Positions 4,006-33,994 of a stretch of 64,000 nt of DNA are shown here, in pieces. Under the pieces are notes generated by a model, which was not told the origin of the DNA, made no database searches, and saw only the letters and a program-made list of their open reading frames with translations. The translations under genes and the position numbers were made by a program. The stretch comes from Halorubrum sp. DM2 (lineage in GTDB: Archaea; Halobacteriota; Halobacteria; Halobacteriales; Haloferacaceae): contig NZ_LR594487.1 of assembly GCF_901686465.1 (NCBI RefSeq), forward strand, positions 1-64,000. Direction: 5' to 3'. The first letter of the stretch is position 1. Every line of letters begins with the position of its first letter.

Positions 4006-4019
4006 TTAGGCTGGCCTAA
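4006..4019. promoter_or_regulatory. Iron box (DtxR-type operator)
   Basis: TTAGGCTGGCCTAA, perfect arms. It touches the start codon at 4004, so a bound repressor would cover the transcription start of the membrane-cupin-cupin-methyltransferase operon. It could also affect the divergent cupin at 4116. Confidence 0.85.
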
Positions 4020-6114: not shown

Positions 6115-7305
6115 TCAGACTAACAGGATTGTTGTCGCGAGCACACTCGTCACGATGGCGACCGGAAGCCCGACACGAATGAGGTGGACGACGGAGAGAT
6201 CGACCCCACGTCGACTCGCCTGATCGAGGACGATTAGCGTTGCCGCGCTCGCAATCGGCGTCGCATTCCCCGCAAGCGTGCTGACCGCTGCCAGAAGATA
6301 CCACCCAGTGAGATCGGATACGGCCGTCGACAACAACACGACGGCAGGCACGTTACTGACGAGGTTCGACAGGACGAACGTCACACCGGCTAAGCCCAAT
6401 CCGCTGCCGACCTGCTGAAGCGTTTCGACGAGGACGGTATCACGGACACTCCCCACGAGTACGAACAGTCCAACAAACAACACGAGGATTCCCCAGTCCA
6501 TCTCTGCGAGGATCTTCTGGCCGGGAAGTCGACGAAACAGTTGGAGCCACGCGAGGTGACAAATCCCCATCCCTGCGGCGATGATCCCGGCGGGTACCGT
6601 CGGAAGCGCAGCCATCAGTACGAACGTTCCGATCAGAAACGCGCCGCTTGAGATCGCCCACCGACGATCGAGATCGGGGACTGAAATAGTCGATTCAATT
6701 GGCGTGCCGTTATGCTGTACTGCGAGCATCGCCGTCGTAACGACGAGAGACACACCAGCGATCGGACCGAGTACACCCACGAACTCGAGCGTTGTGAGGC
6801 CGCTCTGGCTGAGGATGTACGCGTTCTGTGGGTTGCCGAGCGGCGTCGCGACGCTCCCGATGTTCGCCCCGAGGATGACCGCGACGAGCGGCCCGGTGGC
6901 GTCGACCTCGGCGTCTCGAACAGCCTGTATCAACACGGGCGTCATCAGAAGTACAATAGCGTCATTGAGCGCGAGTGCGCTCAAGATCGCAGCCAACCAG
7001 AGTGTCCCGATCACCAGTCGCCGAACCGTCCCCGTCCGTCGGACCAGTTGTGTGGCCGCCCACGGATAAAATCCACTTCTCGACAGCGCCTCGACGTGTG
7101 CGAGCATCCCGAACAGCAGCAGGATCGTTTCGCTGTCGATGCTGCGGAGTGCTTCTTCGGGAGAGATAGCTCCAAGTGCGACGACGACGACCGCCCCGGT
7201 CGCGGCTGTGATCGACCGAGTGAGCGGATAGACCCGGATCTGCCGGAAAAAGAGCAGCCCGAACGCCGCGAGAACAACGGAGATTACTATCGCGTCAGAA
7301 ACCAT
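6115..7305 (-). CDS. SLC13/ArsB-type ion transporter
   Basis: A 396-residue integral membrane protein with about ten hydrophobic spans. It carries the ion-transporter superfamily signature LGANIGSVATPLGNPQNAYI, and the NDAIVLLMTPV motif lies ahead of it, as in ArsB/NhaD/CitM relatives. Such carriers move anions, dicarboxylates, arsenite or Na+/H+; the substrate cannot be assigned. The start codon at 7305 is 84 bases from a degenerate iron box at 7390-7403, on the far side of which lies dpsA, so the two genes may share control. No operon partner follows. Confidence 0.8.
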   Translation of the reverse strand: MVSDAIVISVVLAAFGLLFFRQIRVYPLTRSITAATGAVVVVALGAISPEEALRSIDSETILLLFGMLAHVEALSRSGFYPWAATQLVRRTGTVRRLVIGTLWLAAILSALALNDAIVLLMTPVLIQAVRDAEVDATGPLVAVILGANIGSVATPLGNPQNAYILSQSGLTTLEFVGVLGPIAGVSLVVTTAMLAVQHNGTPIESTISVPDLDRRWAISSGAFLIGTFVLMAALPTVPAGIIAAGMGICHLAWLQLFRRLPGQKILAEMDWGILVLFVGLFVLVGSVRDTVLVETLQQVGSGLGLAGVTFVLSNLVSNVPAVVLLSTAVSDLTGWYLLAAVSTLAGNATPIASAATLIVLDQASRRGVDLSVVHLIRVGLPVAIVTSVLATTILLV

Positions 7306-7389
7306 TTTAATATATTTCTTCTGATAAATTATTTGCCGAGGCGGTCCCTATATCCACTGGTGTACGTTGAGCCAAACACAGACGCTGTT

Positions 7390-7403
7390 TTAGGTAATCC
7401 GAA
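7390..7403. promoter_or_regulatory. Degenerate iron box between transporter and dpsA
   Basis: TTAGGTAATCCGAA: a perfect left arm, one mismatch in the right arm (CCGAA for CCTAA). It lies between two divergent genes and could be a weak operator for dpsA, the transporter, or both. Confidence 0.45.
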
Positions 7404-7459
7404 AAATTATTTGTTAATTGAGAAGTTTGAAGTAGCCGGGGGACCTTGTTAGAGACGTA

Positions 7460-8005
7460 ATGAACACACAGAAGACTGTTCGACAGGAGCCGGGGACCGT
7501 CAAAGAGAACGCGCTCCGACTTGACACGGGCAAAGCCGAACAGATCGTCGAGGCGTTGAACGCAGACCTCGCGAACGCGTACACCCTCTACCACCAGCTC
7601 CACAAACACCACTGGAATGTCGAAGGCGCGGAGTTCCTCGAGGTTCACGTGTTCCTTCAGGAGGTCTACGAGGATGTCGAGGACGCAGCCGACGAGCTCG
7701 CGGAGCGGCTCCAGGCGCTCGGGGGCGTCCCGCATGGGAGCATGACCACGCTCGCGGAACACGCGACTGTCGAGGTCGAAGACGAGAACGTCTACGACAT
7801 CCGGACATCGTTGTCGAACGATCTTGAAGTGATGGGCGACATCATCGAGAGCTACCGTGAACACGTCGAACTGGCCGATAGCCTCGGCGACTACGCGACC
7901 GGTGAGATGCTTCGTGAACAGCTCGAAACGCTCGAAGAGCACACCCACCATATCGAGCACTACCTCGAAGACGATACGCTCGTGCTCGAATCGGCGACCC
8001 AGTAA
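7460..8005 (+). CDS. dpsA: DpsA ferritin-like DNA/iron protection protein
   Basis: A 181-residue member of the Dps/DpsA family. These form dodecameric cages that oxidise Fe(II), consume peroxide and store Fe(III) in the cytoplasm. The ferroxidase region is visible: LYHQLHKHHWNVEG, then FLEVHVFLQEVYEDVEDAADELAERL, giving the His and Asp/Glu set shared across subunits. The length is typical of the haloarchaeal protein. It stands alone on the plus strand, convergent with the amphi-Trp gene, with only a degenerate iron box about 57 bases upstream. In iron-rich cells it should be expressed opposite to the uptake genes around it. Confidence 0.95.
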   Translation: MNTQKTVRQEPGTVKENALRLDTGKAEQIVEALNADLANAYTLYHQLHKHHWNVEGAEFLEVHVFLQEVYEDVEDAADELAERLQALGGVPHGSMTTLAEHATVEVEDENVYDIRTSLSNDLEVMGDIIESYREHVELADSLGDYATGEMLREQLETLEEHTHHIEHYLEDDTLVLESATQ

Positions 8006-8006
8006 G

Positions 8007-8291
8007 CTACTTGATTTCGGGGCCACTTTCGTCGGTCCGCCCCGGAAGTTCGAGCTCGATTTCGAGTTCCGGCTCGTCGACGCCCTCGTACTCCACTTCC
8101 AGTTCGACCGGCTCTCCGAACGCGAAGGGGAGTTCCCACTCGTCGCCGACGATCGTCAGTTTATCGTCGTCACGAAGCTGTTCGCCGAGCGCGATCAGGA
8201 ACTCGCCCGCCTCACTCGCGTCCAGTCGATACTCCTCCTCGAAGTTCCGTCCCGACCGAATCGTCGATTGCTCGTCATCGACGTCGGACAT
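8007..8291 (-). CDS. Amphi-Trp domain protein
   Basis: A 94-residue acidic protein matching the small amphi-Trp domain: an N-terminal part ending in RNFEEEYRLDASEAGEFLIALGEQL, and strands with the conserved Trp in GDEWELPFAFGEPVELEVEY. The function of the domain is unknown. It follows the 55-residue gene at 8292-8459 without a gap, so the two form a small operon. This is controlled by the iron box at 8468-8481. Why iron should control an amphi-Trp protein is not apparent. Confidence 0.85.
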   Translation of the reverse strand: MSDVDDEQSTIRSGRNFEEEYRLDASEAGEFLIALGEQLRDDDKLTIVGDEWELPFAFGEPVELEVEYEGVDEPELEIELELPGRTDESGPEIK

Positions 8292-8459
8292 CTACAGGGC
8301 CACCTCGACGGGCTCGTCGATCGCGATCCAGCCGTCGCTGTTCTCACATTCGATGAACACTGCCTTGCCGGGAGCGCTCTCACAGACGGCAAGCTCCGGC
8401 CTGTCTTCGGAGGGCAATTCGACGGGTCGCCCCATCTCATCTTGCGTACCGGCTGACAT
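8292..8459 (-). CDS. Short conserved haloarchaeal protein
   Basis: A 55-residue protein (MSAGTQDEMGRPVELPSE, ending CENSDGWIAIDEPVEVAL). The pattern of a short acidic head, an Ala-Pro-Gly-x-Ala-Val-Phe strand and a GWIA-D end is one I associate with small haloarchaeal proteins of unknown function (DUF7331-like, from memory, not searched). Its stop is directly followed by the ATG of the amphi-Trp gene. The iron box 8468-8481 begins 9 bases before the start codon, which supports both the start and the reality of the gene. Confidence 0.75.
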   Translation of the reverse strand: MSAGTQDEMGRPVELPSEDRPELAVCESAPGKAVFIECENSDGWIAIDEPVEVAL

Positions 8460-8467
8460 GGATGTCT

Positions 8468-8481
8468 TTAGGCTAACCTAA
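8468..8481. promoter_or_regulatory. Iron box
   Basis: TTAGGCTAACCTAA, perfect arms, 9 bases upstream of the start codon of the 55-residue gene at 8459 (minus strand). Confidence 0.85.
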
Positions 8482-8575
8482 AACAAAACGGTTCCGATCC
8501 CGTACGGCCGTCAGCAAAGAGAACTTCGATTGGACAAACGCGTTCAAGACCGTGTAGCGTGGCACTTTTATATTT

Positions 8576-8589
8576 TTAGTCCAACCTAA
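8576..8589. promoter_or_regulatory. Iron box, one mismatch
   Basis: TTAGTCCAACCTAA: the left arm has T for G. It ends 5 bases before the GTG start of the halocyanin gene at 8594, the same spacing as the perfect boxes. The box at 8468-8481 is about 95 bases away on the divergent gene. Confidence 0.7.
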
Positions 8590-8593
8590 AAAT

Positions 8594-9163
8594 GTGACCG
8601 AAAAACTAACTCATCCTACCTGTGATCGTCGTGATCTCCTCACTACGACCGGTGTTCTCGGGAGTATAGCCGTGACGGGCTGTATGGGTACCGACGAGAC
8701 GTCACCAGATGCGACAGTAGTCGACTCGATGGATGATTTAGAGACACTGCCAGCTGATGACTACCCGCTCGTTGGACGCTGGCTCGACACCGACGAGGTG
8801 GGAGGTGCGGACGATACGTTCAACGGAACGATCGTCGATGCTCGTGGCCTCGATAACCCCGAGATCACGGTCGGTGCGGAGGGGAACGGCGGCCCGGTCG
8901 CGTTCGATCCCTCTGCCGTGATTATCTCTCCGGAAACCGTCGTCAAATGGGTCTGGACTGCCCACGGCCATCACAACGTCGTGTCGGATCCCAACGCGCA
9001 ATTGGGGGAATCGAACCGTGCGTTCTCCTCGGGGGAGATCGTCGAGCGAGAAAACAACCTACATACGGAGGTGTTCGACGAGGCGGGAACCGTTCTCTAC
9101 CAGTGTGAACCGCATCTGGATTTAGGCATGAAAGGAGCGCTCGTCGTCGACTCACAGGCATAG
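8594..9163 (+). CDS. Halocyanin-type blue copper lipoprotein
   Basis: A 189-residue exported protein. A twin-arginine motif (DRRDLL) and lipobox (VTGC, Cys about 30) mark Tat export and a lipid anchor. The C-terminal 100 residues are a plastocyanin-like domain with copper ligands His in GHHNVV, Cys and His in YQCEPHLDLG, and Met in MKGA. Such proteins carry single electrons at the outer face of the membrane. Iron-box control suggests it is made when iron-containing carriers are short, or that it serves ferric reduction or ferroxidation; both are inference. GTG is the only start next to the box. Confidence 0.9.
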   Translation: MTEKLTHPTCDRRDLLTTTGVLGSIAVTGCMGTDETSPDATVVDSMDDLETLPADDYPLVGRWLDTDEVGGADDTFNGTIVDARGLDNPEITVGAEGNGGPVAFDPSAVIISPETVVKWVWTAHGHHNVVSDPNAQLGESNRAFSSGEIVERENNLHTEVFDEAGTVLYQCEPHLDLGMKGALVVDSQA

Positions 9164-9245
9164 ACCACGTCCCCGATTCGACTGGACGATCGTGGTATCG
9201 GTGAAATTCATATCCTATTATGAACGGTTTTACCGAGTCGGCTAT

Positions 9246-9644
9246 TCAGTACTCGGAGAGAGATCCCGCCTCCTCGTCAGGCACCTCATCGGCCGGAACG
9301 AGCGTCTCTGCGAGTCGCTCGGCGACCGTCGGGCTGACTAGTCCGGCCATTCGCATCGCCTCGCGTTCGTGCGTATCGAGGTCCAGAACCGAGCGGAAAA
9401 ACCACGAGAGCGTCACGTAGGTCTCATGTAACGCTTCCGCCTGCTCACAGCCTGAGGACGTCAGTTTTGCCCCCTCGTACGGTTCGTATTCGACGAGCCC
9501 CTCTGTCTCAAGTCGCTGGAACATCTCGGTTGTCGCAGCCTGTGAGCGGTCGAGTGCCGTCGCGAGCTGTCCCGACGATATCGGTGGAGACGACTGCTGT
9601 TCGGCGATGAACAGAGCGAGGAGGTAGTCTGATTCTGCGGTCAT
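9246..9644 (-). CDS. DtxR-family regulator, degenerate metal site
   Basis: A 132-residue protein with the DtxR/MntR/SirR layout: an N-terminal winged helix (SSGQLATALDRSQAATTEMFQRLETEGLVEYEPYEGAKLTSSG in pieces of the family pattern), then a helical dimerisation part (SVLDLDTHEREAMRMAGLV). Aligned by eye with DtxR, the primary-site residues Cys102, Glu105 and His106 fall on Met, Ala and Gly, so canonical metal sensing looks lost. It has no SH3-like third domain. Its start overlaps the stop of a 52-residue gene by 4 bases. It could bind the iron boxes, or compete with or partner a full-length regulator encoded elsewhere. Confidence 0.85.
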   Translation of the reverse strand: MTAESDYLLALFIAEQQSSPPISSGQLATALDRSQAATTEMFQRLETEGLVEYEPYEGAKLTSSGCEQAEALHETYVTLSWFFRSVLDLDTHEREAMRMAGLVSPTVAERLAETLVPADEVPDEEAGSLSEY

Positions 9645-9802: not shown

Positions 9803-10603
9803 TTATACCCTCTGGGTCAGATGATCGCGAACAGATCGCTGACAGTCCACCAACAGCCCGTTGAGACGCGTTACCGTCGACAGGACAGGATACGAGACCG
9901 GAAACTCTTGATAGAGAAACGTCATGAGTGAGCGATGTTTGAGTCCCGCGTTAGGCCCTCGGTTCGTTGTAGCCTGAATAGTCTTCTGTCGAACACGGAG
10001 GCGCTCATCACACCGTTCTCGGTGGGCCGATAGCTGTTCGTGGCGTCGCTGAAGCTCGGGGAACCCGAGTTTGAGGAGTGACGTCTGATTGTGCTTTTCT
10101 ACCCACTCGGTAACGGTTTGACAGTCTTGGGCAGCCGCTTGGAGCGACTCAGTCTCGCGATCGAGCGCACTGCTCATCGCAGTGAGTTCTTGGAGTCGCT
10201 GTTGGGCCTTCGAACAGATCGCGCTCTGAACCTGTGGGGTTACGTCGGCATCCGTTTCGGATGCGAGGACGAACGCAAGAGAGTCACCGAGTTCTTCGCG
10301 AATCGTTTCGAGGACCGGTTCCTCGCCGTCAAGATCGGCGACGCTGTGGGGACGAACGGTTTCGGTGAATAGCTCACGGACGCGATCGGCGTCGGTGGTC
10401 ACCGCCTCATGCCGTGATCCGCCTGCGACAGAGAGGGTCCCTCCATCGGCCGACAGGCCTGTCGAGGGCGTCGCTGCCGACTGTGGCGATAGCGACGCGA
10501 CTCCCGATCGGAAGCGCTCGTAGGCTTTACGCTCCGCGTCGAAGTGTGTCTGCTCCCGCTCGACACGCGTCATCGCACTATCGATGTGGGTCTCGATCGA
10601 CAT
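9803..10603 (-). CDS. Conserved coiled-coil protein of unknown function
   Basis: A 266-residue, largely helical protein. It begins MSIETHIDSAMTRVEREQTH and has two segments likely to form coiled coils (about residues 5-35 and 120-220), with repeated QRRHEQLSAHRERCDERL-type heptads. I associate such proteins with a haloarchaeal family of unknown function often placed beside signalling or transport genes (DUF7260-like, from memory). The start at 10603 was chosen over a long Arg-rich upstream extension. It follows the 10605-11552 gene with a one-base gap and is probably part of the iron-box transcript that begins at 14040. Confidence 0.75.
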   Translation of the reverse strand: MSIETHIDSAMTRVEREQTHFDAERKAYERFRSGVASLSPQSAATPSTGLSADGGTLSVAGGSRHEAVTTDADRVRELFTETVRPHSVADLDGEEPVLETIREELGDSLAFVLASETDADVTPQVQSAICSKAQQRLQELTAMSSALDRETESLQAAAQDCQTVTEWVEKHNQTSLLKLGFPELQRRHEQLSAHRERCDERLRVRQKTIQATTNRGPNAGLKHRSLMTFLYQEFPVSYPVLSTVTRLNGLLVDCQRSVRDHLTQRV

Positions 10604-10604
10604 C

Positions 10605-11552
10605 CTAGCGCACCTCCGGAGCGAAAACTGGACCGGACTGATCGAGCGTTTCCGAGTCCTCGACAGGTCGAAATGAGATCTGTATGTTATTCCCAGATGT
10701 ATCCACTCGGGTCGGAACCCACGCGTCGTCGCACCGGTGGACGGTGAGCGCAATTGGGAGCAGCGGCAAGCGGCCGTCGGACGGCTGGAGCGCGTACCCG
10801 GAGACATCAACGATAAGTTCCGCGGCACACCCGTCTGCCTCGCTGTCGGTGACTTGGCTCCCCCGAGAATAAAGACCGGTATTCTGAAGCACGGACAGCG
10901 ATTCGTCGACTGACTGTTCTCCAGAGGACCGCATCGGGGAGCCCGTTGCGTCTCTCGGCTCGTGTTCCAGTCGTTCTGCCGCCGCCGAGAGGAAGGCGAC
11001 CTGTTCGGACGAATTGAGGTGGTCGGCGAGTTCGACCGCCATGCTCTCCAGAAGCCGGATACAGAGTCCGTTGGGGTCGGAGAGCTCTTCGGCGTGTGCG
11101 AAGTACGCGTCCATGATCGCGGATTCGACGGCGTCGTACCCGCGCTCGGAGAGGGTCTCGAAGACCGCCGCGGCGACGCGGTGACAGAACTCGACGAGTT
11201 CGCGGGCGACCGACAGCGAGCGTTTCACGACCGGCTCGGCGAGTGCTGCCGGATAGGTGGACTGCGAGTCACAGCGCCGTCGCTCGATGCGCGCACACCG
11301 AGTCTGGATATCCACGGCCTGACACGCGACAATGTCGTAGTACGGAACCTGCGGGTCGTACCGACGGAGCGCCTGTCGGTACTGCGTGGTCGCCTGCGCG
11401 GCCGCCCTCGCGGTGGCTCGCGTGTCGAACCGGAGGTCCGAAGCAGGGACGGGGCGGTCGCCGTACCGCGCACAGATGAGGTAGTACTCGCCGTCGTCGC
11501 TGGCCAGCGACTCGATGTGGTCGCGGATTTCGGCGAGTGTGGTTCCAATCAC
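10605..11552 (-). CDS. Conserved haloarchaeal protein of unknown function
   Basis: A 315-residue soluble protein. The N-terminal 75 residues (LAEIRDHIESLASDDGEYYL, then ICARYGDRPVPASDLRFDTR) recall a haloarchaeal domain that often accompanies the coiled-coil family encoded next. The middle is helical, and the C-terminal 90 residues form likely strands (AELIVDVSGYALQPSDG). The GTG start at 11552 has a strong AAGGAGG ribosome site 6-9 bases upstream; the upstream open frame is antisense-like. It lies 22 bases after the 821-residue repeat protein, suggesting one transcript under the iron boxes near 14045. No function can be given. Confidence 0.8.
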   Translation of the reverse strand: MIGTTLAEIRDHIESLASDDGEYYLICARYGDRPVPASDLRFDTRATARAAAQATTQYRQALRRYDPQVPYYDIVACQAVDIQTRCARIERRRCDSQSTYPAALAEPVVKRSLSVARELVEFCHRVAAAVFETLSERGYDAVESAIMDAYFAHAEELSDPNGLCIRLLESMAVELADHLNSSEQVAFLSAAAERLEHEPRDATGSPMRSSGEQSVDESLSVLQNTGLYSRGSQVTDSEADGCAAELIVDVSGYALQPSDGRLPLLPIALTVHRCDDAWVPTRVDTSGNNIQISFRPVEDSETLDQSGPVFAPEVR

Positions 11553-11574: not shown

Positions 11575-14040
11575 TCATTCCACGGTGACTGATCCCACCA
11601 TGCCGGCGGCCTCATGCGGGACACAAAAGTACTCGTGTGTCCCGGCCGTTTCGAAGGTGCGTACGTACGACTGTCCGGACTGGACAGCTCCCTCCCCGTT
11701 CTCCCAGCCGGTTCGTGCGGCTTCCTCCGATTCGAACCCGCCGGACGCCCAGTAGTCGGCGGCTTCCGGGATTTCGTCCGCGTAGCCGACCACGTTGTGT
11801 GGCTCACCGGCGTTGTGCGCCCATGCGACTGTGTCTCCCTGTGAAACCGTGAGTTGCTCCGGCTCGAACGCGACGGCGTTCATCTCGACCACGTGGTCGG
11901 CATCGTCGGGTACTCCCTCGACGATGTTGGGGCCGCCTTCCAATTCTGACTCCCCATCCTCTTCGTCGCTCATTTCGGATCCGTCCACGGGAGCCGCGTC
12001 CGACGCGCCTGCGACCGCGAACTGCGCGCGCAGCGCCGCCTGTGCGAACCCCTCGGCGGACGCGTCAACGTCCGAGCCCGAGTCGAGCGCGCCGATGTAC
12101 TCCTCCAACATCCCCTCGAATCCCTCGTAGGCGTCCCGGTCGGCGTCCTCCAATGCCTCGTGGACGCGGGCCTCCTCGAAGTGAGCGAAGGTGTCCTGCA
12201 TCACCGACGCCGCCTCCGACCCGAACGAACCGCCGGCCGACGCCACCACGGCGTAGATGGCCCCGACCGCCTCGCCGTTGAACTCCTGAGCCTGCTCGGC
12301 GACGCTCCCGCCCTCCCGAGCGGCGCTCTCTGTCGCGCTGAGTGCGGCCTCGAAAGATTCGTAGCGGTCGTGATCGGCCTCCTCGAGGGCCTCGTGGAAG
12401 CCGCCGGCCCCAGCCTCGAAGTGCCGGAATACCGCCTGGACGACCGAAGCCGCGCGGTCGGAGTCACCGACGTCGTCGAGGACCCCGGCATCGAAGACCC
12501 GGGCCGCGGCGTAGCCGCTCTCGACGGCACTCACGTGAGCGGTCGTCCCCGCGGTCGTCTCGAAGGATAACAACGTCTCCCGGATCCCGGCCACGTGGTC
12601 CTCGACGGCCGCGTCGTCGCCGTCCTCGAAGGCCTCGATCAGTCCTGTCAGGTGCTCGTCTTCGAAGAGCTCGTAGAGGGACTCGTCGGTCTCTTCAAGC
12701 GTTTCGTGGAAGTCGGCCTCGTTTGCCTCGAAGGTCCCGAAGACATTGCGAGCAGTCTCGGCTGCGAGCCCTGCCTCCCCGAGTCGGTACCGCTCCAGTG
12801 CGTCTTCGATCCGAGCCTTGACGTAGCCCGCCTCGAGGAGGGCGGGTTCGTCACCGCTGCCGAGCGCTTCGATCCCGTCGACCAACGCGCCGTTGATCGT
12901 CTCGACCGCCGCCGTGACACTCTCCGAGTCGTCGTTGTCGATAGCCGTCGAGAGCGCGCTCAGTCCGTCGTCCTCGAACCGGTGGTACGCGTCTTCGCTA
13001 GACTCCTCTAACGCCTCGTGCGCTCTGGCGCCCTCGAAGTGGGCAAAGGTGTTTTCGACGCGTTCCGAGGCGGCGTCGGCGTGCCCGCGCTCGTACAGCC
13101 AGGCGGCGTCGTGGACGCGCGCCCGGTAGACGGTCAGGGCAGCAGCGTGGGCGAACTCCGTCGAGGCACCACCCAACCCCGTGAGCGCGGCAGCGTCCCA
13201 CCCCCGCCCCTGAAGGGTACTGATATGCGTAGCGCTGGCGACCGACTCCGGGAGGAGCGAGTAACTGCCCCGAGTAGCCGCCCCGACCACCTCGTTTGCG
13301 GCCGCAACAGCAGTCTCGCCATCCTCGCTGTCGGCCGCAGCGGCTCCTCGGTCGAGTGCGGTAACGAAGGCATCAGCGGCCTCCGCGTCGGCTCCAGCCA
13401 GCAGTTCGCGAAGCCCCTTCTCCTCGAACTTCGTACCGATATGCGAGAACTCCCCCGCCGCGTCCTCGAAGTCTCCGATCTGCGCGAGCAGTGCCGCGTC
13501 CGAGACGTGGGCACCCATCACGAGGACGTTCAGCGGCTTCACCGCCTCGGACCCGATGAGTGCGCCCTGTACACCCCGCAGATGTTCGTCGGCGGTACGC
13601 ATCGCGTCGTGTGCGCCTTCGAGGTCTTCGGCCTCCAGTGCCCCGCGGAGGTCGCCCAACCCTTCCTCGAACCCCTCGTAGTGTTCCTCGCTAGTGTCCT
13701 CGAGCACCTCGTGGGCGTTGTGTTCACCCGAAGCGGTCTCGAACCGCTCGAAGATGCGGCTCGCAACCGACGCGCCGGCGGTGAACTCCTCGGCGTGTCC
13801 GAGGATAACGGGGTCGCGCAGGCGGATTCGCATCGCGTTCCACTCCGAGACGACCGCCGCGTCCGTCGGGTCGGGATCCGCTATCCCTGACTCGTCGGTG
13901 GACTGTTCGGTTGTAGTGTCGCCGTTCGAGGGTTGATCTGTCTCGTCTCCATCGCTCCCGAGGATCCCAGAACACCCTGCGAGACCGGCGAGGAGTGCTG
14001 TACCAGTTCCGCCGAGCAACGTACGCCGTGTCCGTCGCAT
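11575..14040 (-). CDS. Large Tat lipoprotein: five His/Glu repeats plus cupredoxin
   Basis: An 821-residue surface protein. A twin-arginine leader (MRRTRRTLLGG) with lipobox LAGC (Cys23) is followed by an acidic linker. The body holds five copies of a helical motif with F-x-x-F-E, then H-E-x-L-E, then Y-x-x-F-E, at about residues 97-125, 332-356, 433-460, 537-564 and 617-642. It ends in a cupredoxin (about 717-821) with His748, Cys806, His809 and Met814. The repeat resembles haloarchaeal DUF5059-type proteins (from memory). Regularly spaced His/Glu pairs suggest metal or heme binding. A perfect iron box ends at the start codon. I infer a role in extracellular iron capture or redox. Confidence 0.88.
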   Translation of the reverse strand: MRRTRRTLLGGTGTALLAGLAGCSGILGSDGDETDQPSNGDTTTEQSTDESGIADPDPTDAAVVSEWNAMRIRLRDPVILGHAEEFTAGASVASRIFERFETASGEHNAHEVLEDTSEEHYEGFEEGLGDLRGALEAEDLEGAHDAMRTADEHLRGVQGALIGSEAVKPLNVLVMGAHVSDAALLAQIGDFEDAAGEFSHIGTKFEEKGLRELLAGADAEAADAFVTALDRGAAAADSEDGETAVAAANEVVGAATRGSYSLLPESVASATHISTLQGRGWDAAALTGLGGASTEFAHAAALTVYRARVHDAAWLYERGHADAASERVENTFAHFEGARAHEALEESSEDAYHRFEDDGLSALSTAIDNDDSESVTAAVETINGALVDGIEALGSGDEPALLEAGYVKARIEDALERYRLGEAGLAAETARNVFGTFEANEADFHETLEETDESLYELFEDEHLTGLIEAFEDGDDAAVEDHVAGIRETLLSFETTAGTTAHVSAVESGYAAARVFDAGVLDDVGDSDRAASVVQAVFRHFEAGAGGFHEALEEADHDRYESFEAALSATESAAREGGSVAEQAQEFNGEAVGAIYAVVASAGGSFGSEAASVMQDTFAHFEEARVHEALEDADRDAYEGFEGMLEEYIGALDSGSDVDASAEGFAQAALRAQFAVAGASDAAPVDGSEMSDEEDGESELEGGPNIVEGVPDDADHVVEMNAVAFEPEQLTVSQGDTVAWAHNAGEPHNVVGYADEIPEAADYWASGGFESEEAARTGWENGEGAVQSGQSYVRTFETAGTHEYFCVPHEAAGMVGSVTVE

Positions 14041-14044
14041 ATGT

Positions 14045-14058
14045 TTAGGTTAACCTAA
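14045..14058. promoter_or_regulatory. Iron box, fully palindromic
   Basis: TTAGGTTAACCTAA, a complete palindrome, 5 bases before the ATG at 14040. A TATA-like TTTATAC lies upstream on the minus strand (about 14060-14067), about 25 bases from the start codon. The box therefore covers a leaderless transcription start. Confidence 0.9.
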
Positions 14059-14080
14059 AAGTATAAATCAGTTCTGGTTT

Positions 14081-14094
14081 TTTGGCTGGCCTAA
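14081..14094. promoter_or_regulatory. Second, one-mismatch iron box
   Basis: TTTGGCTGGCCTAA, with T for A in the left arm, 36 bases beyond the perfect box of the same promoter. The pair may allow cooperative binding, covering both the transcription start and the region upstream of the TATA element. Confidence 0.6.
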
Positions 14095-14211
14095 AATAGG
14101 CCAATCACGGTGGCTGCCGCTGCTATCTTGGGTAATAGACGATACATTAGAATTAGGAGCGGAACGAGATTCTCTGATCGATAGATTCATTATCCACACA
14201 AACACGGTTCA

Positions 14212-28797: not shown

Positions 28798-30057
28798 CTA
28801 GCCGTTCAGACTTGAAGCGGCAGTAGGTTCGGACTGCGCTCGGAGGCGAACCGAGACGCAGGTACCTCCAAACTCACTTTCCCGTACGGTTATCGATCCA
28901 CCGGAACTCCGCACAATCCAGCGGGTAAGCCACAATCCCAATCCGCTACTGTGACTGAGCGATGTTTCAGTTTCGGATGTAAGCACCTCCTGTTCTATCG
29001 AGGGCAACCCTGGGCCGTTGTCCGCGACGCTCACGGTAACGTGGTTCTGAGAGGGTCCGACCTCTACAGCGACTGTCACCCTAGGAATCTCTGAATCGTT
29101 GTGCTCGATAGCATTATCAAGGATGTTATCGAATGCGTACGGCAACAGCTCGTGAGCCACGACGGAGAGCGATTCCGGTATCTCATCGGATATGTGCGAG
29201 TTCTGTGACTTGATACGAAGCTGCTCGACTCGTTTTCGCAGCATTACACCCAGATCGACTGTCGTACGTTCTGCCTCACTATCGTCCTGAAGCTGTTCGA
29301 TGTTCCGTGCTGTTTGACTCAGTTCGATAATATTCGATAGATGTTTATTTATTATGTCAGTATGCTCATTTTCGATAGATAAATCATCGACCAGCATCTC
29401 GAGGCGTCCCTGAATCACATTTACGTCGTTCCGTATATTGTGGCGCAGAACACGGTTGAGAACGGTAAGACGTTGTTCACGCTGTTTCTGATCGGTAATA
29501 TCACTTATAATGAGTACTGCGCCACTGAACTCCTCGTCTTGCGTTTGAACCGGGGCAGCCCAGATCCGGACGTCGAGCACACTTCCGTTCTTGTGGGTAT
29601 GCCGTGCCTCCACTCCGTGTAGTTGCTCGTTGTTCTGGAGGCGAGGAAGAATCTCCTCGGTGGTTCCCGACGATGAGGAAAGCACCTGTGGATACATCTG
29701 TCGGCGCACTTCGGTATCGGTCCACCCAAATATCCTCTCGGCACCGTTGTTCCAGACCTGAACCATGCCGTCCGCATCAACGACGAGGATAGCCACAGGA
29801 GCGGCTTCAACAACGGCCGTAAAGCGATTGAGAAGGCGCTCAACCGCTGTAGTGAGAATATCGACTTGAGCTTCGGTATCGAGCTGTCTGTGTAATACCG
29901 TAAGAAGATCTGAAAAGAGATCTTGGGTGAGCTCTTCACGCTCTGTAGTCGCTTGCGATTGATAGGCTTTCAACAGCGCTTGCTGGGTTTCTTCATGCCC
30001 CTCTTCGGAGAGAACACGGAATAGAGTCCCGACGAGCTGCTCCGCGTGATCCGCCAT
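28798..30057 (-). CDS. PAS-domain sensor histidine kinase
   Basis: A 419-residue soluble kinase. A helical N-terminus (1-75) is followed by a PAS domain (about 80-195; VVEAAPVAILVVDADGMVQV), then the phospho-acceptor helix VLRHNIRNDVNVIQGRLEML with His206. The ATPase domain has NILDNAIEHN, VADNGPGLPSIEQ and SSGLGLWLTRW. There is no membrane span and no receiver domain in the window. The ATG at 30057 touches an iron box, making this a kinase whose own synthesis is iron-controlled. A helical N-terminus as in some haloarchaeal sensors may bind a partner. Confidence 0.92.
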   Translation of the reverse strand: MADHAEQLVGTLFRVLSEEGHEETQQALLKAYQSQATTEREELTQDLFSDLLTVLHRQLDTEAQVDILTTAVERLLNRFTAVVEAAPVAILVVDADGMVQVWNNGAERIFGWTDTEVRRQMYPQVLSSSSGTTEEILPRLQNNEQLHGVEARHTHKNGSVLDVRIWAAPVQTQDEEFSGAVLIISDITDQKQREQRLTVLNRVLRHNIRNDVNVIQGRLEMLVDDLSIENEHTDIINKHLSNIIELSQTARNIEQLQDDSEAERTTVDLGVMLRKRVEQLRIKSQNSHISDEIPESLSVVAHELLPYAFDNILDNAIEHNDSEIPRVTVAVEVGPSQNHVTVSVADNGPGLPSIEQEVLTSETETSLSHSSGLGLWLTRWIVRSSGGSITVRESEFGGTCVSVRLRAQSEPTAASSLNG

Positions 30058-32094: not shown

Positions 32095-33816
32095 TCAGCC
32101 GAAGACAATTACACCTCCCCACGCGATCACGGCCGCAAAGCCGATCGCAGCAACCGCCTGCCGAATCATCATTGTCAGAGCCCATTGTGGTGAGACCTCG
32201 CGGGCAACGGTAAACGCTGTCACCAGACACGGCAGCAAGACCCCTGCGAGATAGACGACTACGAGAACCTGCACGGGAGAGAGTGCGGCCGCCGTCGACG
32301 CGCCGTCAGCAGTTAGCAGGGCGATTCCGTCCTTCCGAATCGACGCCAGCACGACTGTGAGCGCGGCATCCGCCGGGAGATTGAACAGGGCCATCGCCGG
32401 TCCAAGCACCGATCCCAGCGCGTCGATCACACCGAGACGGTCGAGCGCGGCGGCGACGAAGGTGATGACGACGAAGACAGGGAGTGCCTTCATAAAGAAC
32501 TCCCTGAGCGCGCTCCAGGCCTCGCGGGCGACCGCCTTCGGGTCTGGCCACTGGAGGAACGTTCGGCGGTCGATCACGGTGGTCGACTCTCGGGCTTCGG
32601 CGGGCGCGATCACCCCGACGTAGATGAACGTCGTGACCGCCAACACGAGGAGGTAGGGGCCGACGAGCCAGCCCATGCCGACCGCCGCGAACACCGCGAG
32701 CGTCGCGGGAAACTGGTACGAACAGGCCGAGCCGAACGAGATGGCCGAAATGGTCGTACACCGCGTACAGTCAGAACACGAGCGGGTGTTGACCACTGCG
32801 GGGACGTTACAGCCGAACCCCATCACGACGCGAATGAGGTCCCTCCCGGAGAGGCCGATCCGTCGCATCGTCGGATGTAGCGCAACGGTCATGCGGGTGA
32901 CGACGCCCGTGTTCTTGTACACGCCGAGAATCACCGCGAAGAGGAGCATCGTCGGCCCGGCCCAGACGAACAGAAATGGCCCCATCGACAACAGGCCGTA
33001 GTCGTTCGTCAACAGCACCGCGAGCGGCTCCGGAAGCCGCTCGGCGGCCGCGACCAGCGGCTCGAAAGCGGCTCCCACGATCGGATCGAGTTCACCGGCG
33101 AGCGTGTTGGCGAACCAGACCGCTGCGCCGGCCGGGACCAACAGGAGCAACAGGCTCACCAGCGGGCCGACAATCGGCCACTCAAACACCGTTTTCGGCG
33201 GTTCGATCCGCCGACCGACCTGCTTGCGCGCAGCGTTCGGGAAAATCCCCGGCTGAGCCAAGGCGTCCATGATCTGCCCGTAGGCGTCGGTCGACGTTCC
33301 GGCGCTCGACTCCGGCGTCCCGCCGTCGACTATCGGCCGCTCAACCGTGCGAGCGTCAACGGGGACGACCGGAACGCCGATGTCGGCGCTTAGTTCCTCA
33401 AGTGCTCGGCGGGTTTCGGTTCGTTCCTCGACTTTGTCCCAGAAGGTAACGACGACGGCTCCGAGATGGGATTCGACCAGCGGCAGTAGCGCGTCGAGGT
33501 CGTCGTCGACATCCGTCGCCGGAACGACGAGCAACACCGTCTCGTTCTCGTCGACCTGCGCCAGTGCGTCCCGCGTCCCCTCGGTGTCGGCATCGAGGAC
33601 GATCCCAGGCGTGTCGACGAACTCGTACCCGTCGGTCGTGTACCGCTCACTGCGGGTGGTGGTGCCCCGAAAGTTCCCACTGGTCGGCCGGTCGCCCGTG
33701 ACCGAGGAGATGAGTTCGGACTTCCCGACACTCTCCTTCCCGACGACCACGACGGTCTCTCTGTCGGCGTCCTCCGCAGCCGGTGTGTCGCCCGGTCGCT
33801 CCCGGCTTTCAGTCAT
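32095..33816 (-). CDS. FeoB-like GTPase-linked metal transporter
   Basis: A 573-residue protein: a G domain (residues 20-180) with P-loop GKESVGKSE and switch DTPG in [10 protein letters not shown], then a membrane part with two Gate segments. The first Gate has the FeoB-type [20 protein letters not shown], here with a CxxC insert and more Cys in [10 protein letters not shown]. The fourth G motif, normally NKxD, reads WDKVE, so nucleotide choice may differ. FeoB proteins import Fe(II). This copy has no FeoA and no iron box, and is coupled (8-base overlap) to a zinc-free S14 paralogue, so zinc or another divalent metal is a real alternative. Confidence 0.88.
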
Positions 33817-33994
33817 ACTTCTCGAACCCGATTGCGGGGGCCAGTTCGCGGAACGACTGCCGACAGAGCCAGATATCGTACTTCCCAACGAGACCCTGTT
33901 CGCGGCCGGTCACCCGACAGACGTGTCGATCGTCGTTACTCGCTCCGGTTGATTGCTCGATGCTACTGTCTTCGTTCGATGTGTCTCGTGTCAT
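33809..33994 (-). CDS. uS14 ribosomal protein paralogue lacking zinc ligands
   Basis: A 61-residue protein whose C-terminal 38 residues are archaeal/eukaryal uS14: [20 protein letters not shown], then [18 protein letters not shown]. Normal uS14 holds zinc with two Cys-x-x-Cys pairs; here the second Cys of each pair is Thr and Ser, so the tetrahedral site is gone while the rRNA-binding residues remain. In bacteria such C-minus paralogues replace the zinc form when zinc is scarce. It starts 2 bases after the CzcO-like gene and overlaps the FeoB-like gene. A zinc-sparing ribosomal protein is the best reading; a decaying duplicate is less likely given the intact frame. Confidence 0.9.

Follow-up and report, generated by a model that had tools for sequence, protein, structure and literature searches.

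A Tat Lipoprotein of Halorubrum sp. DM2 with DUF5059 Helical Repeats and a Type-1 Copper Domain, Encoded behind Conserved Iron Boxes

Organization of the Gene and Its Product

The window analyzed here is a stretch of 64,000 nucleotides from Halorubrum sp. DM2 (positions 1 to 64,000 of contig NZ_LR594487.1). At 11575–14040, on the minus strand, ORF calling, Pfam searches and homologue alignment identified a gene for a Tat lipoprotein of 821 amino acids in which a DUF5059 domain and a type-1 copper domain are combined. A first-pass annotation had described a single 821-residue protein joining helical repeats, a lipobox and a blue-copper domain, and this observation was confirmed. Residues 1–23 (13972–14040, minus strand), containing RRTRRTLLGG...LAGC, are a Tat-type signal peptide and lipobox, and R5, R6, A21, G22 and C23 do not vary among the 22 homologues. 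Residues 62–684 (11989–13857, minus strand), all-helical in the predicted structure, match PF16502 (DUF5059) from position 1 to 619 of the 619 positions of the model (E = 6.7e-204; 679.6 bits, cut-off 25). The family is already known to Pfam as DUF5059, without an assigned function.

Repeat alignment and structure models place, all on the minus strand, repeat 1 at aa 58–162 (13555–13869; E101/H110/E114/Y121/E125), repeat 3 at aa 294–393 (12862–13161; E336/H341/E345/Y352/E356), repeat 4 at aa 398–497 (12550–12849; E438/H445/E449/Y456/E460) and repeat 5 at aa 500–601 (12238–12543; E542/H549/E553/Y560/E564). Repeat 6 (aa 607–677, 12010–12222, minus strand; E622/H627/E631/Y638/E642) has its first helix in common with repeat 5. 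These five units carry intact copies of the motif FxxFE...HExLE...YxxFE, as had been claimed, but the units number six in all: repeat 2 (aa 164–262, 13255–13551, minus strand) is degenerate, with E206 kept in its unit 191–262 and R211, A215, A222 and V226 in place of the H, E, Y and E. An extra helix (aa 265–287, 13180–13248, minus strand) lies between repeats 2 and 3 in the structure model. The anchor Glu residues of consecutive units are 105, 130, 102, 104 and 80 residues apart, and matches of single repeats to a single-unit profile reach E = 2e-31, so that the repeat pattern lies far beyond what chance would give.

The copper domain (aa 714–821, 11578–11901, minus strand) follows the last repeat and matches Copper-bind of Pfam (E = 1.8e-19); the domain search delimited it at aa 717–821. 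Its ligands H748, C806 and H809 are invariant, and M814 is found in 20 of the 22 homologues. In structural comparison it aligned with plastocyanin 2plt over 91 residues (Z = 14.3, rmsd 1.1). The plastocyanin fold and the His, Cys, His and Met ligands by which a type-1 cupredoxin is recognized are both present, which bears out the C-terminal blue-copper domain of the first-pass annotation. The protein scored below the NCBIfam cut-off for halocyanins (TIGR03102; 36.4 bits against 93.8), and likewise below that for plastocyanins.

Downstream of the DUF5059 gene, domain searches identified three further genes on the minus strand. A DUF7552 and DUF7551 gene (10605–11552) starts 22 nt after the DUF5059 stop and is likely on the same transcript; a DUF7260 gene (9803–10603) adjoins the stop of the DUF7552/7551 gene; and a gene for a DtxR-type iron-dependent repressor (9246–9644; PF01325, E = 2.3e-10) follows in the same direction about 160 bp after the DUF7260 gene. 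Related genes occur at about 1.207–1.210 Mb behind a box-controlled gene for a siderophore-binding protein, where DtxR is 93% and DUF7260 83% identical. The presence of related downstream genes behind a second box-controlled iron gene suggests that the DUF7260/DtxR genes are a feedback module attached to iron operons in DM2. No neighbor of DUF5059, the downstream module included, is conserved across genera, and thus no import partner was identified.

Conserved Residues and Predicted Structure of the Repeats

Conservation was assessed over 126 repeat units pooled from 22 proteins, with the numbering of repeat 3. The seven most conserved positions, at 94–99%, are F-E, H, E, Y and F-E. Among them are E336 (99%), H341 (94%), E345 (96%), Y352 (98%) and E356 (98%), which outrank every other polar position of the repeat; the next-ranked position is an Asp of the first helix, present in 90% of the units having that position, and the others are lower. 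The repeats are otherwise only about 25–58% identical. In repeat 6, the five residues are kept in 22, 22, 21, 22 and 22 of the 22 homologues (in the order E/H/E/Y/E). Given that the first helix of repeat 6 is without the R/D pair found in repeats 1, 3, 4 and 5, the five residues are not simply the partners of that pair. Conversely, the helices of repeat 2 are still predicted at high confidence despite the joint loss of four of these residues, which suggests, as far as alignment and modeling can tell, that the E/H/E/Y/E set has a functional rather than a structural role. The loss in repeat 2 of the DM2 protein is common to one Halovenus sequence, and repeat 2 of Haloarcula has Tyr in place of the His.

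The full-length model, built with 22 sequences, has a pLDDT of 87. In this model, a repeat consists of helix A of about 24 residues, helix B of about 17, a short helix C of about 9, helix D of about 20 and helix E of about 22. When repeats 3–5 were modeled alone, consecutive helical bundles were obtained (pLDDT 96, pTM 0.93). A span of 21–25 residues around two tight turns holds the closing Glu of helix B, the HxxxE motif in helix C and the YxxxE motif in helix D. By helix-face analysis, each of the five intact units has E/H/E/Y/E along one flank of its helices and close to the hydrophobic face; the exception is the Tyr in repeats 3 and 4, which points directly into that face. It is from this arrangement in sequence and models that the five side chains are expected to converge. 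The repeated putative metal sites proposed earlier are backed by both the near invariance of the set over the 126 units and its common flank in the intact ones.

In structural searches with the full-length model, matches were dominated by the copper domain. With the three-repeat model, no Foldseek match was found below E = 0.001, and the best VIA-align match was a menaquinone-binding reductase subunit (Z 7.4, rmsd 5.4, 190 aligned). The iron-uptake protein EfeO (7wgu) ranked 13th in Foldseek (E = 0.69, prob 0.75) and was absent among the VIA-align matches listed. Neither program returned a convincing solved-structure relative of the repeat domain. Because middling VIA-align scores are common for helical bundles, novelty of the fold is not claimed. 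A comparison of the unit profile with solved structures returned a designed protein (E = 0.0005), aIF2-alpha and cytochrome b562 fragments, which were judged to be chance matches.

Iron Boxes and the Iron Regulon

A proximal iron box, TTTAGGTTAACCTAAA, is a perfect palindrome at 14044–14059, 3 nt before the ATG, and a distal box, TTTTGGCTGGCCTAAA, at 14080–14095 agrees with the consensus at 11 of 12 bases and is spaced exactly 36 bp from the proximal one. The motif scan thus recovered both the fully palindromic box directly before the gene and the second, weaker box of the first-pass annotation. A TATA-like element (14062–14067, minus strand) lies between the two boxes, and this arrangement is repeated in homologues. 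The perfect box TTAGGNNNNCCTAA occurs 28 times genome-wide, compared to once for a reversed control. Ten perfect boxes are in the window, all between 4.0 and 30.1 kb and none beyond. Perfect boxes precede or adjoin genes for FecCD permeases, Peripla_BP_2 siderophore-binding proteins, ABC ATPases and other solute-binding proteins as well as the DUF7260/DtxR pair, and both DUF5059 genes of the DM2 genome have one directly upstream.

We further compared 31 DUF5059 promoters (one genome counted twice), with a box defined as having at least 11 of the 12 consensus bases. A box starts 18–23 bp before the ATG in 31 of 31 promoters. Of these, 28 have another box 34–37 bp upstream of the first, the two being separated by a BRE/TATA-like stretch. 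A conserved promoter palindrome common to iron-uptake genes, by which operators of a DtxR-type iron regulon are recognized, is therefore present, and on this sequence evidence the DUF5059 gene is a member of the iron-uptake regulon. The layout, with the boxes bracketing the TATA element, would fit occlusion of the promoter by two repressor dimers.

Within 120 bp of a perfect box in the DM2 genome, all second sites but one, at 108 bp, are spaced exactly 36 bp from it. Seven 36-bp doublets were found, at 14044/14080 of the window and at C1 1186841/1186877, 1191029/1191065, 1493818/1493854, 2403594/2403630, 2408130/2408166 and 3309699/3309735. Genes behind doublets are those for DUF5059, FecCD/siderophore functions and DUF7260-DtxR; boxes in the Fe ABC/glycosyltransferase islands are single.

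Distribution and Expression of DUF5059

DUF5059 was found in 22 of 146 related haloarchaeal genomes and in 11 of 59 genera, among them Halobacterium, Haloarcula, Haloferax, Natrinema, Halohasta and Haloarchaeobius. Given that so few of these genomes have it, DUF5059 is optional for iron uptake. The DM2 genome has a second copy at 3309894–3311762. When 393 genomes of the phylum were searched with a single-repeat profile, strong matches were confined to the order, with none outside Halobacteria; of five weak matches, the three inspected turned out to be a HEAT-like protein and two DnaK proteins and were judged to be chance. FeoB co-occurrence was uninformative because the FeoB_N model matched background GTPases in every genome. 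Halopiger, Halobiforma and one further genome encode a shorter version of the protein (503 aa, three repeats). The three-repeat short forms (L054, L055 and L023) have the same iron box, and in L054 and L055 the axial copper Met is replaced by Gln or His.

The DM2 protein resembles PF16502 proteins such as HVO_1228 of Haloferax volcanii in its full-length match, six-repeat layout, copper domain and promoter box. It differs from these relatives in that its repeat 2 is without the conserved residues and that its gene is closely trailed by the DUF7552/7551, DUF7260 and DtxR repressor genes. In a published study of H. volcanii, HVO_1228 ("DUF5059 domain") ranked in the top ten of the genes induced (log2 4.2) upon knock-down of the splicing endonuclease (endA), a condition that is not iron limitation, and the siderophore synthesis genes IucA, IucB and IucD were induced with it, as were the genes of two proteins of Fe(III) ABC transporters (PMC7714728). 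This co-expression, although under endA knock-down, ties DUF5059 to the iron response in a second genus. Together with the conservation of the boxes and the regulon that they define, it lends strong support to the iron regulation claimed in the first-pass annotation.

HVO_1228 is absent from the main text of the iron-starvation proteome paper, and the accessible text of the publications that name DUF5059, found by a full-text literature search, gives no iron role for it. As far as could be searched, both the regulation and the repeat-site reading are new, though the published FerR regulon list (Leyn and Rodionov, 2015) may include the gene. The name hcpG, which one paper equated with DUF5059 in Hfx. 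mediterranei, is not used here, given that HVO_2150 hcpG is described as a copper protein of the denitrification cluster.

Comparison with Known Systems and Proposed Function

Bacterial EfeO, of the EfeUOB iron transport system, pairs a cupredoxin with a helical M75 domain, whose candidate ligands include HxxE, Glu/Asp and Tyr (PMC9174327; PMC3143127). Like EfeO, the DM2 protein is extracytoplasmic and iron-regulated, and in both a cupredoxin is fused to a helical domain that has His/Glu/Tyr candidates. Its copper domain is, however, C-terminal rather than N-terminal, and its five candidate sites are in a repeat array. No match to M75 (PF09375) was found in the DM2 protein at E ≤ 1 or in the 146 relatives, with positive controls. 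An FTR1-type permease, the EfeU partner of EfeUOB, was above the cut-off in none of the 146 haloarchaeal genomes, also with positive controls, and the single sub-cut-off fragment was from an incomplete genome. The missing M75 and FTR1 rule out membership of EfeO/EfeUOB. Halocyanins and plastocyanins share the type-1 copper domain and lipid anchor with the DM2 protein, which differs from them in scoring below their NCBIfam cut-offs, in its large repeat domain and in its position behind iron boxes. Four-helix iron proteins of the ferritin-like and hemerythrin-like kinds are also helical bundles with Glu/His candidates, whereas the DUF5059 repeat domain has no match to them in Pfam, no convincing structural match and a different ligand-like pattern, FE...HxxxE...YxxxE.

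With moderate confidence, we propose that the DM2 protein is a lipid-anchored surface protein for iron capture that is induced by iron starvation and carries a copper redox domain, EfeO-like in its layout but not a member of EfeO. This reading builds on the lipoprotein anatomy, the copper ligands, the repeat conservation, the iron-box control and the co-expression of the orthologue. It retains the iron regulation, type-1 copper domain and repeated candidate sites of the earlier interpretation and drops heme capture, for which no specific support was obtained. In iron-replete cells, both boxes would be occupied by an iron-loaded repressor of the DtxR family, which would block the promoter; under iron shortage, the lipoprotein would be produced and anchored on the outer side of the membrane. 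Iron might then be bound in every intact repeat by the Glu/His/Glu/Tyr/Glu set, where helices B, C and D meet, which would allow the repeat chain to buffer several iron ions close to the importers. The copper domain could alter the oxidation state of repeat-bound iron, either as a ferroxidase or for reductive release, or could instead pass electrons to or from the respiratory chain, and the captured iron would be handed over to the co-regulated ABC importers. More tentatively, DUF5059 may be a multi-site iron-binding repeat unrelated to M75, ferritin and transferrin, that is, a convergent haloarchaeal counterpart of EfeO with carboxylate/His/Tyr sites wired to a surface copper redox center.

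The main rival to iron capture is that the protein is an iron-sparing electron carrier, in which blue copper replaces iron carriers at low iron and the repeats are a stalk or docking scaffold with structural or partner-contacting residues. We consider it rather unlikely, although halocyanins are one-electron carriers in haloarchaea (PMC8305020), respiratory iron proteins drop in iron starvation (PMC11349517) and a second, small halocyanin of the window (8594–9163) also has near-perfect and perfect iron boxes. The conserved polar set could indeed be a structural or protein-binding network. A scaffold, however, leaves unexplained why Glu/His/Glu/Tyr/Glu are conserved at 94–99% in repeats otherwise so divergent, and why these residues were lost jointly from repeat 2 with the fold apparently retained.

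It is improbable that the protein is instead a receptor for iron chelates, ferric siderophores among them, which the repeats would dock in place of bare iron and the copper domain would reduce. The DUF5059 gene does share its regulon with FecCD/FhuD-type systems in the DM2 genome, and the Haloferax study reports induction of the orthologue alongside siderophore synthesis (PMC7714728). IucA/IucC, however, was found in only 5 of the 22 DUF5059 genomes, a co-occurrence that is not significant (Fisher p = 0.07), and in DM2 there is none. The conserved set is also acidic, unlike typical ferric-siderophore pockets. A role in heme capture, with the repeated His/Tyr as axial ligands, appears very improbable. 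In its favor are the near invariance of His and Tyr within every repeat and a resemblance of single repeats to common four-helix bundles, heme-binding ones included, but the bundle matches are generic (Z under 8 in VIA-align), the three near-invariant Glu beside His/Tyr seem unsuited to a heme pocket, and no heme-transport gene was found adjoining the DUF5059 gene.

The iron-capture reading bears on how iron passes across the surface layer to ABC importers in archaea without EfeUOB, for which this single-gene, iron-box-controlled copper/helical-repeat lipoprotein provides a defined and testable candidate. If correct, a Pfam family without a function would gain one, and copper chemistry would have been coupled with iron uptake convergently. 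The naturally dead repeat 2 and the three-repeat forms of other genera are ready tests of site number.

Other Iron Loci in the DM2 Genome

The gene of the small halocyanin lipoprotein at 8594–9163 is immediately preceded by a near-perfect box (8575), and a perfect one lies at 8467, 108 bp (3 × 36) from it. Window positions 6115–9644 and C1 1207772–1212032 are near-identical duplicates, with a permease, an Amphi-Trp protein (96%), DtxR (93%) and DUF7260 (83%). Paralogous iron islands with single boxes, at 4006–30072 of the window and C1 1950739–1960042, encode an ABC permease, a solute-binding lipoprotein and RGP-like, GMC oxidoreductase, GT2 and PMT-like proteins, which places glycosyltransferase and PMT-like genes in an iron regulon. 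A FeoB-like protein with FeoB_N and Gate domains (32095–33888) is encoded close to the iron island, and its gene has no perfect box. At 28798–30057, a PAS histidine kinase gene lies directly behind a perfect iron box, and the N-terminus of the kinase contains a DUF7551-like stretch, below the Pfam cut-off, that recalls the DUF7551 of the gene following DUF5059.
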